Assembly: GCA_903862645.1 (NCBI GenBank)
Contig: CAIOZF010000003.1
Location: forward strand, 1-64,000
Origin: an uncultured Gammaproteobacteria bacterium
GTDB taxonomy: Bacteria > Pseudomonadota > Gammaproteobacteria > Pseudomonadales > Pseudohongiellaceae
Direction of reading: 5' to 3'
DNA length: 64,000 nucleotides
A program made the translations under genes and the position numbers. Under the pieces are notes generated by a model, which saw only the letters and a list, made by a program, of their open reading frames with translations, was not told where the DNA came from and made no database searches. The stretch's first letter is position 1. Each line of letters begins with the position of its first letter. Of this stretch, positions 50,420 to 54,765 are shown one piece after another.

Positions 50420-53398
50420 TTACTCGCTCTTCTCAGAATTCGCGGCAGTTGCCGCAGCAAGTATTTGCTGCCGACGCTTGATCTCGCGTGGATCGTTAGG
50501 TGCGCGACCGGCCAGGGTCGGGATGGCAACCTCAGCAGGGGCGGGCGCTTCTACTACTACTGCTGCTACAGGCACCTCAGCCGATTGCGGACGAGGCTCT
50601 TGGGCTACTACGACTTCAAGCGATTCAGCGGCAACAGCCGGTGCTGCGACTGACTGCTCGTCCACAGGTTCTGTTGTAGCCTCCTCGACGATGGCGATGT
50701 CGAAAGATTCCTGCACCATCACCTTGGCTACAGCATTTCTGCGTCGTACCGGTGCTACTTTGACCGCCGTTTCCAAGACCGCCTCCGCTATTGTCGCAAG
50801 TGAAGTCTCCGATACTGCAGCGGATTCCGCTACCGAAGCAGCCACTTCTTGCTGCGCGGTCTCGGAGACGGCTTCAGCCACGTGCCCGGCATCTTTTATT
50901 ACGGTCCCATCCTCATTTCCTGCGCTTGCTGTACTTTTAGCGCGGCTGCGGCGGCGATCAGACGGACGACGGTTGCGGCGTGAAGATCGACCACCTTCGG
51001 ACTGCGTGCCGTCAGTCGCGGCGTCTTCCTGGCTTCCTCCCTCGACAGACTCAATCGCGGCATCGATTGACTCTACGGTGTCAACATCAATGGCTCGGGT
51101 GCTGCGTTCGCTTGGCTTTTGATCAGCGCTATCCTGATCTCCTAGGGCTCCGATGTCAGCTCTCGACTCTTCATTTACCTCGCCGCCTTCCGCTTCACCT
51201 GAGCGTGGGCCACGACGTCGCTGACTGGTGTTCTTTGGACGACGATTACCAGTACGGCGCTGGGCGTTGCGCGCCTCCTCATCCACACCTGCTTCAGCGC
51301 TTTCTTCACGAAGTGGTTCGTCAGTGCGAGCCTCATCGCGACGGGCACCATCGCGACGCGGCTCGTCTCTGCGTCCATCGCGTTTCTCATCTTTGCGTTC
51401 TTCTCGGTTGCCGGGCTGAACAGCGGCGCCGTCAGCATTGCGGCTACGGTCTCTGCCACCGCGTTTGCGGCCTTGGCCACCCTCGTGTGATGGGGCTGCG
51501 GCTTCACCACCGACGCTTTGCTCAGGCTTGCTTTCCGCCTTTGGCTCCTGGCCATCGCGACGACTGGCGGGTTTGCCGCCACGACGCTGATCGCGGTCTC
51601 GTTCACGACGGGGATCACGATCACGAGGGCGATTGGCTTTGTTCTGTGTCTCGTCCTTCTTTGCTTCCTCTTCTTCATCGTCACCGAAGATACTGCTGAC
51701 AGCGGCAATCAGCGTGCCAAACAGGCCTTTCTTTTTCTTCTCAGTTTTCTGGCTCTTGCCACCTGAGTCAGTCGAAGATAGAACCGGCGCAGGTGGCATG
51801 GACAAGGAAGGGGCCTGAACAGCTGCCTGTTGTTGCACTGGCGCGGGCTTCACATTCTTGTGGTGGTGATGTTCGGGTGAGTCAACATGGATTTCGATTT
51901 CATAGCTGGCAGTGGCCACGCCATCCGCCTGATTGACACCCTGAATTTCGTAATGCGGAGTTTCCAGGGCTGCGTTGGCAACGATCACAAGCCTGGTACC
52001 GCTCTGTGCTTCGATGGCCGCAACTGCGGCACGCTTCTCGTTGAGCAGATAAGAGGCTACGGTAATGGGCACGATAGCCCGAATTTCGTTGTTCTTGCGC
52101 TTGTTGGCTTCTTCCTGCAGAACACGCAGGATGGAGAGAGCCTGGGACTTTACGTCACGGATGGCGCCTTGACCGTTGCAGCGCGGACAGACGATGGTAC
52201 TGGTCTCTTCCAGGGAAGGACGCAGACGCTGACGGGACATTTCCAGCAGACCAAAACGGGAAATACGGCCAACCTGCACACGGGCACGGTCCGCTTCCAG
52301 CGCATCGCGCATGCGGTTTTCTACTTCCTTCTGATTACGGGCGGAGCTCATGTCGATGAAGTCGATCACGATCAGGCCACCCATGTCGCGCAGGCGCAAC
52401 TGGCGGGCGATCTCGTCGGCCGCTTCGAGGTTGGTATTCAATGCGGTTTCTTCAATGTCGGAGCCACGTGTCGCACGGGAGGAGTTGATGTCAATTGACA
52501 CCAGTGCCTCGGTCGGGTCGATCACGATTGAGCCACCGGACGGAAGCTTTACTTCGCGTTGGAATGCGGTCTCGATCTGGCCTTCGATCTGGTAACGATT
52601 GAACAGCGGCAGCGATTCCTGATACAGCTTGATGCGGGCTTCATAATGCGGCATCACCTGACGCACGAAGGTGATCGCTTCGTCGAAGGCTTCCTTTGTA
52701 TCAAAGAGCACTTCGCCGATGTCCTGACGCAAGTAGTCACGGATGGTACGGATGATGACATTGCTTTCCTGATAGATCAGGAAAGGGGCGGCTTTCTGGG
52801 TAGAGGCTTCAGTGACGGAGTTCCAGAGAGACAGCAGGTAATCCAGGTCCCACTGCAGCTCCTGCTGCTGTTTGCCCACTCCAGCGGTGCGGACGATCAT
52901 GCCCATGCCATCGGGAATATCCAGGCCACTGAGAGCTTCGCGGATTTCGGAGCGCTCGTCGCCTTCAATGCGGCGGGAGATACCACCAGCGCGGGGATTG
53001 TTCGGCATCAGCACCAGATAGCGCCCGGCGAGGCTGACGAAGGTGGTCAGTGCTGCGCCCTTGTTGCCGCGCTCTTCTTTTTCCACCTGCACAATGACTT
53101 CAGTGCCTTCGGCAACGGAATCCTTGATGTTGACGCGACCGCCATCGCCACCACCACGCTTGGTGAAGTACTGCGGAGAGATTTCCTTGAGGGGCAGAAA
53201 GCCATGACGCTCAGCACCGAAGTCGACGAAAGCGGCTTCCAGACTGGGTTCGACACGGGTAATACGGCCTTTGTAAATACTGGCCTTTTTCTGGACTCTG
53301 GAGCGGTTTTCGATGTCTAGGTCGTAAAGACGCTGACCATCAACCAGTGCTACACGCAACTCCTCTTCTTGAGTCGCATTGATTAACATTCTTTTCAT
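50420..53398 (-). CDS. rne: Ribonuclease E
   Basis: Endoribonuclease and scaffold of the RNA degradosome, essential for rRNA, tRNA and mRNA processing. The catalytic half begins [26 protein letters not shown]-type sequence (residues 1 on), with the S1 domain, [13 protein letters not shown], catalytic aspartates in [20 protein letters not shown] and [14 protein letters not shown], and the Zn-link [10 protein letters not shown]. From about residue 515 it is disordered: an Arg/Asp/Glu-rich RNA-binding region, then an Ala/Val/Glu-rich tail ending [11 protein letters not shown]. About 992 residues. ATG 53398 is the conserved start; 53410 would add four residues. A 5' leader of up to 570 bases precedes it. 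Confidence 0.97.
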
Positions 53399-53970
53399 GA
53401 TTAGGTTCACTTTTCTGTTGAGCCAGAACGGTAAACCCGGGGTACATCAAACCTGCAGGCAGCGCATTACTGAAAGCGGATTTGCTTTCCTTTCAACAGA
53501 ACCATGGCGAGATATTAAACGCATTGCTAACCTTGGCGACCTGGGAACTGAAATCCGATAGCGAAAATCTCTGACTTTGGTGCTGCGCAGCATTGCGACG
53601 GAACACTGACAAAGAGGGGCGTGTGTTGCCTTGCTCTGTCGGAAAGTCAATTCATGTAAACCTGACTGCTTCAAGTGCAACCTCATCTGTTAATGGCGTG
53701 AGGTTTCACTTTCCTAAATTTGATACGACCCGAATTTATCTGGCTGTATTTTCTTTTCGTACCGGCGTTAAGTGCCGATACTCCGTATGTTTTCAACACC
53801 GTGTTTCCGGTGCTTTGTTCACTGCTTCGGTCTTGCTGAAATCTTGTCTCGGCACAGCGCCTGCCTAGCCTCTAATGACTGATTGACATGGAGTCGGAAG
53901 GTCAGAGATTTCGCATGTCGGCCAGCTGGCCAACCGGAATGGTGTTCCCCATACTCTGCGACGCCGCGGC
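53399..53970 (-). promoter_or_regulatory. Structured 5' leader of rne, no gene seen
   Basis: This gene-free stretch precedes rne. Read on the minus strand it has several stems. A long-range pairing joins 53898-53914 with 53561-53578 (14 pairs plus one bulge and one mismatch). Inside it, 53673-53685 pairs with 53699-53711 (AAGTG-C-AACCTCA against TGAGGTT-T-CACTT, 12 pairs with one mismatch). A smaller hairpin GAAAGC/GCTTTC lies at 53472-53489, and a palindrome TGCTGCGCAGCA at 53581-53592. E. coli rne has a structured leader that RNase E itself cleaves for autoregulation; this is probably the counterpart. Confidence 0.55.
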
Positions 53971-54000
53971 AATATACCAGTAAATACTTTTTAATTCAAA
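53971..54000 (-). promoter_or_regulatory. Candidate rne promoter
   Basis: On the minus strand TTTGAA (54000-53995) and TATATT (53976-53971) are spaced by 18 bases. Start of transcription would be near 53964, giving a leader of about 566 bases that contains the stems described for the rne leader. Divergent from, and only 12 bases away from, the candidate promoter for the recombinase-lol operon. Confidence 0.4.
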
Positions 54001-54081: not shown

Positions 54082-54765
54082 ATGACTATTTATCTGTATG
54101 TTCGCACGTCCGAGTTCGAAACACAGGCTGATCCTCAGGAAAATCCTTTGGCGTCGAGCGGACCACTGGCAGACGAGTGGGAGAGCATTAGTCGGTATTG
54201 TGAGAGCCTGGGGTGGCACACAGCAGAACGTATGGCTGACTTTGGCGCTGCCTGGAACACGGACTTTGGTGCACGTGAACGGGGTGGGGGCCTGCTGGAG
54301 AAACTGCAGGAGGGGGATGTGCTGGTGGTGTATACCTTGGAGCGGTTATTCAGCTCCTGCTATGATGCCGTCGCGATCCTGGAACGACTCACAGCGGCCG
54401 GAGTGGGGCTCCATGTGGTAGAACTGGGTGGGGATGCGACCGATCCTGCCCTGCGATTTGACCTGGTCAACGCCGCGCGGCTGTTCGCCGCACTGGAACG
54501 GCGGCGCTCAGCAGAGCGCATCAAGAAGATCAAGAAAAATCAACGTGGCAAAGGCCGCTTCTTGGGAGGGAGCCGTCCGCTTGGCTACATGATCCATTCC
54601 AACGGCCGGCTCATCGAGAGTCCCATGGAGCAAAAGGTGTTGAAGAAAATCATGCAGTTGCGCGAGCAGGGGCTGTCGTTGCGCAGTATTGCGGCGGAAG
54701 TCAGTACGCCGGTTGCGCCTGTGAGTTTCAAGACCGTACAAAGGGTACTGCGACGCAATGTTTAA
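54082..54765 (+). CDS. Serine-recombinase-like protein with altered active site
   Basis: A 227-residue protein with the fold order of small serine recombinases. The N-terminal strand YLYVRTSE keeps the motif arginine R8 and the candidate nucleophile S10. A later strand and helix, GDVLVVYTLERLFSSCYDAVAIL, corresponds to the usual DRLGR motif but reads E87-R88-L-F-S91, so the conserved aspartate and second arginine are changed. A long helix (AERIKKIKKNQRGKGR) leads to a C-terminal helix-turn-helix (LSLRSIAAEV and VSFKTVQRVLRR). It has no flanking repeats of a mobile element and overlaps lolC by eight bases. It may be a domesticated DNA-binding protein. Confidence 0.8.
   Translation: MTIYLYVRTSEFETQADPQENPLASSGPLADEWESISRYCESLGWHTAERMADFGAAWNTDFGARERGGGLLEKLQEGDVLVVYTLERLFSSCYDAVAILERLTAAGVGLHVVELGGDATDPALRFDLVNAARLFAALERRRSAERIKKIKKNQRGKGRFLGGSRPLGYMIHSNGRLIESPMEQKVLKKIMQLREQGLSLRSIAAEVSTPVAPVSFKTVQRVLRRNV

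Follow-up and report, generated by a model that had tools for sequence, protein, structure and literature searches.

The stretch directly before rne in the window (the whole 64,000-nucleotide piece of DNA that was analyzed) is a genuine, evolutionarily conserved folded leader RNA. By analogy with the rne genes of other bacteria we consider it, with a probability of roughly 70%, to be a lineage-specific RNase E autoregulatory leader through which the level of the enzyme would be adjusted in cis. The MFE fold of 53964-53399 had a z of -3.36 against dinucleotide shuffles, and values between -2.7 and -4.9 were obtained in all 11 genus members tested, the window's own included. A long structured rne leader had already been proposed in an initial annotation of this DNA, and it is borne out by the fold z as well as by a conserved promoter.

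The rne locus and its promoter

The rne gene starts with an ATG at 53398 on the minus strand, and the most similar RNase E proteins among named relatives include those of Pseudohongiella and of uncultured Gammaproteobacteria, from which the window probably belongs to the family Pseudohongiellaceae of the order Pseudomonadales. As the initial annotation had noted (a gap of about 680 bases without a gene), 683 nt without any known gene separate rne from a divergent resolvase-like gene at 54082, and the two open reading frames in this gap (91 and 105 aa) had no match in Pfam. The divergent neighbor (54082-54765, plus strand) encodes a resolvase-like serine recombinase (Pfam PF00239). It was found at the same position in every genus locus examined, with 56-74% identity within the genus, and two other genera of the family also carry it there in many of their members; because of this fixed position across relatives it looks vertically inherited and fixed, not mobile.

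The promoter predicted for rne has the form TTTGAA (54000-53995)-N14-extended -10 CTGGTATATT (53980-53971), and this extended -10 promoter is kept in 13 of the 13 genus genomes that hold the region, with a variable length between promoter and rne. From it, the transcript start is predicted near 53964, 7 nt past CTGTTATAGT, in agreement with the start point suggested earlier, and a start downstream of 53898, which would remove one arm of the long-range stem discussed below, is unlikely given the conservation of the promoter from which the position is read. Two features expected of a structured rne leader were present, i.e., a long untranslated leader directly 5' of rne with a promoter of its own (the start being that given by the promoter) and a conserved RNA structure; 53964-53399 is probably transcribed and left untranslated. 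The coordinates of all elements are collected in Table 1.

When the promoter scan was extended to the order, 61 of 87 groups reached the cut-off, compared with 2.7% of the shuffles (the groups are approximate, as some genera were merged manually and a few close relatives entered as separate groups), and the rne leaders deduced from these promoters measured 342-1084 nt, with a median of 552. A near-fixed rne promoter with an extended -10, WTTGAA-N14-CTGNTATAKT, was observed in very different Pseudomonadales families (e.g., L077, L093, L107, and L131).

Table 1. Elements of the rne locus and its leader, in coordinates of the window
Feature	Coordinates	Strand	Evidence
rne, RNase E	50420..53398	-	Pfam RNase_E_G, RNase_E_G_Thio and S1 domains
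Probable 5' leader of rne (RNA of about 566 nt)	53399..53964	-	Fold z -3.36; no Rfam match
Predicted rne promoter	53971..54000	-	Consensus scan; sigma-70-type; conserved in genus
5' arm of long-range stem	53901..53914	-	Pairs with 53561-53575 in MFE fold and RNAalifold
3' arm of long-range stem	53561..53575	-	Retained in 6/13 genomes at best; no clade-specific compensation
Hairpin H2	53794..53815	-	Both sides changed in 5/6 pairs, pairing in 98% of cells; arm-swap p 0.0014
Hairpin H3, preceded by invariant ACGGAG	53759..53781	-	Both sides changed in 5/8 pairs, pairing in 95.5% of cells; arm-swap p 0.008
Core hairpin H4 (53749-53723) and unpaired AUCAAAUU after it	53715..53750	-	Nearly invariant in 13 genus genomes
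Hairpin H5 (12-pair hairpin of the initial annotation)	53674..53710	-	P 1.0 in 9/13 genomes; arm-swap p 0.0014
Hairpin H6	53646..53666	-	RNAalifold, 91% canonical cells; no co-variation signal
Hairpin H7 (absent from three genus members)	53608..53640	-	RNAalifold; arm-swap p 0.006
Hairpin H9, GAAAGC-AAAUCC-GCUUUC	53472..53489	-	Hairpin in 13/13 genomes
Start-codon-proximal (RBS) hairpin, ends 4 nt before ATG	53403..53438	-	99% canonical cells in genus

Conserved hairpins in the middle of the leader and at the start codon

Four hairpins of the genus leaders, H2, H3, H5, and H7, keep their pairing through compensating changes. In each of them the own arms paired better than arms exchanged between genomes (arm-swap test, for which the smallest possible p among the genus helices is 0.0014), and H5 gives good support to the 12-pair hairpin that had been placed at 53673-53711 in the initial annotation. 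Covariation was evident in H2 and H3: the three-helix structure had 96.7% of its cells paired in the genus, 29 cells carried changes on both sides compared with 11.9 for the shuffles (none of 500 was as high), and this covariation signal was abolished when the partner was slid by one to three columns. The genus alignment used here was made with genafpair, since another alignment misplaced the 5' arm of the long-range stem in L007/L011/L013. When covariation was scanned over all pairs of positions against a tree-based null, no credible base pair emerged, as the 13 genus leaders offer too little power for such a scan.

Within the middle of the leader, conservation is highest in H4 and the AUCAAAUU that follows it. 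As H4 hardly varies, its pairing is beyond the reach of the covariation test; we consider H4 and AUCAAAUU a candidate element for recognition and cleavage by RNase E. The H4 core element was not found outside the genus elsewhere in the order, and a covariance model built on the middle domain of the genus retrieved nothing from 94 other family and order leaders, E. coli included, so that the middle domain appears genus-specific as far as this can be detected. Closer to the gene, the H9 loop AAAUCC (53483-53478) is complementary to CGGAUUU at 53557-53551, some 70 nt further upstream. In all 13 genomes the GGAU/AUCC core of this pairing is invariant, and the L007/L011/L013 clade has one further pair with both partners changed, which suggests a possible pseudoknot.

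The best-supported structural feature shared among these leaders is the hairpin at the start codon. Its halves were compared by an alignment-free arm-swap, as MAFFT misaligned the start-codon hairpins by register and RNAalifold consequently returned no pair. In the family (64 distinct sequences), own halves gave -12.99 kcal/mol vs. -9.11 ± 0.35 kcal/mol for halves swapped among species, and no permutation out of 2000 came up to the value of the own halves. In the 87 order groups, the last 50 nt before rne had a mean z of -1.66, with 63% of the groups below -1, compared with a z of -0.03 to -0.75 and 14-38% below -1 in control windows of the same upstream regions.

This widely supported hairpin, with its co-variation in the family and excess folding across the order, is also the main argument for an explanation in which rne is controlled chiefly at translation, i.e., an sRNA, temperature or an RNA-binding protein would open the start-codon hairpin, and cleavage of the leader by RNase E would not serve as the sensor. 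The ACGGAG between H2 and H3 (53786-53781), which is invariant in all genus members, points in the same direction, as it resembles the GGA core bound by proteins of the CsrA/RsmA type. Translational control of this kind would, however, leave some 500 further nucleotides with conserved hairpins unexplained and would not account for the precedents in E. coli and Pseudomonas, and we regard it as unlikely, albeit the strongest of the alternatives.

The long-range stem

In the initial annotation the leader was described as closed by a long-range stem, and this layout was thought to mark a possible new leader class. When 53399-53964 was folded, both the arms of this stem, GCGAAAUCUCUGAC (53914-53901) and GUCAGAGAUUUUCGC (53575-53561), and the 12-pair hairpin were present and paired in the MFE fold, and RNAalifold also selected the stem on the genus alignment. 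As a conserved element the stem fares worse. The best long-range duplex of the window's leader reached -28.1 kcal/mol vs. -23.5 ± 2.4 kcal/mol in shuffles, but 10 of 200 shuffles had a duplex just as strong, which is borderline. Of the 13 genus genomes, the four nearest species had a pair probability close to 1 and the other nine had at most 0.23. At orthologous positions, pairing was retained in two clades (6 genomes, of which the 5 tested had p ≤ 0.009 against shuffled arms), so complementarity is kept in one clade besides that of the nearest species, while it was weak or marginal in three clades (p 0.045-0.15) and absent in the L011/L013 clade (p 0.4-0.8). Compensating changes in the stem were not found across the genus, and its arm-swap p of 0.046 precedes correction for the 11 helices tested, with several arms swapped between clades pairing better than the own ones.

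An autoregulatory leader defined strictly by the stem 53914-53901/53575-53561 is thus very unlikely, in spite of the near-certain pairing in the four nearest species. The arms exist and can pair, but they are neither conserved throughout the genus nor accompanied by compensating evolution, which the annotation itself had named as grounds for giving up the stem as a general element; it may be at most a lineage-specific addition in the nearest species. Nor would a closing stem set this leader apart as a new class, because the consensus of E. coli rne5 already holds a long-range closing helix.

Probable RNase E control and the rne leaders of Pseudomonadales

Two Rfam families of rne leader RNA turned up in this work, rne5 and rne-II, and the search for the RNase E 5' UTR family recommended by the initial annotation matched neither of them here at either gathering or permissive thresholds, while both models recognized their controls. 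The rne5 model (RF00040; gathering threshold 180 bits) gave no match in the window even at E-values up to 5 and none in the genome (3.1 Mb in 254 contigs), vs. 260 bits on the E. coli control. The rne-II model (RF01756; gathering threshold 50 bits) had no match in the window, the genome or the relatives, vs. 212-220 bits on Pseudomonas-type controls; in the order it matched only three Pseudomonas-type genomes (family f21) of 116, and a class-level search matched nothing, controls included, whereas the order-level search did match the controls. Judged by these models, the leader is outside both described Rfam families.

The likeness to these families lies in the layout. As in E. coli rne5, a long structured leader with several hairpins is found directly before rne, but it has no covariance-model match, no shared hp2-type motif above chance, and a length of about 566 nt vs. 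361 nt in rne5. A motif similar to E. coli hp2 (AGC..GACGUWUY) looked suggestive by eye and was rejected, as it occurred in 4 groups vs. 1.5 expected and in up to 5 in shuffles. With rne-II of Pseudomonas it shares the order, the long leader, a hairpin just before the start codon, and the same kind of promoter (WTTGAA-N14-CTGNTATA), but not the family itself, which has no match in the window's genome or family. In the cyanobacterium Synechocystis, RNase E cleaves the 5' UTR of its own mRNA in a negative feedback (PMC10989929), which there involves a U-rich cleavage stretch and premature termination. An intrinsic terminator that could serve attenuation was sought on the rne strand of our leader and none was found, which differs from the Synechocystis case and counts against simple attenuation.

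Autoregulation fits here because the rne gene of E. coli and, by indirect evidence, that of P. aeruginosa are controlled in this way. E. coli RNase E binds to the 5' UTR of rne, 361 nt in length, and cuts the mRNA that encodes the enzyme itself (PMC6850036). In P. aeruginosa, RNA of the rne 5' UTR and coding sequence rises when the C-terminal domain of RNase E is removed (PMC11964227), and a 5' fragment of rne was attributed to cleavage at rne-II (PMC8545117). That rne5, rne-II, and the leader described here are all found at the same position upstream of rne speaks for autoregulation; that no sequence elements common to this leader and either rne5 or rne-II could be detected speaks against it, and the conservation of structure, taken alone, also fits other forms of control in cis.

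In the mechanism that we propose, the folded middle domain (H2-H5) would be the sensor recognized by RNase E, and the enzyme would cut unpaired AU-rich stretches such as the AUCAAAUU after H4. With RNase E in excess, the rne mRNA would be cut and decay, while with RNase E busy or scarce intact rne mRNA would survive and be translated. The last hairpin probably limits the loading of ribosomes, which would leave the leader bare and accessible to RNase E. That the leader is instead simply a long UTR with incidental folding, whose hairpins reflect, e.g., a processed small RNA derived from the 5' UTR, would agree with a middle domain not common beyond the genus but hardly with the compensating changes in several hairpins and with a long leader and excess start-codon folding retained throughout the order, and we consider it the least likely of all readings.

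Taken together, the data from the order suggest that rne is generally preceded by a long structured leader in the whole of Pseudomonadales, with a common promoter and start-codon hairpin and very different middles. A further generalization, which we offer tentatively and consider possible rather than probable, is that rne in this order has a fixed frame (one promoter, a leader of 350-1100 nt and a start-codon hairpin) in which lineages have exchanged one middle domain for another; on this view, RNase E sensors would have arisen more than once at this position, rne-II and the leader described here would be two independent solutions, and the start-codon hairpin would be their common gate. The leader is of interest mainly because its frame seems to be repeated throughout the order with middles that differ. 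This raises the question whether feedback can persist when the sensor RNA has changed so far that it is no longer recognizable, and the varied rne leaders provide a natural set of sequences in which to ask what RNase E needs in order to recognize its own mRNA.
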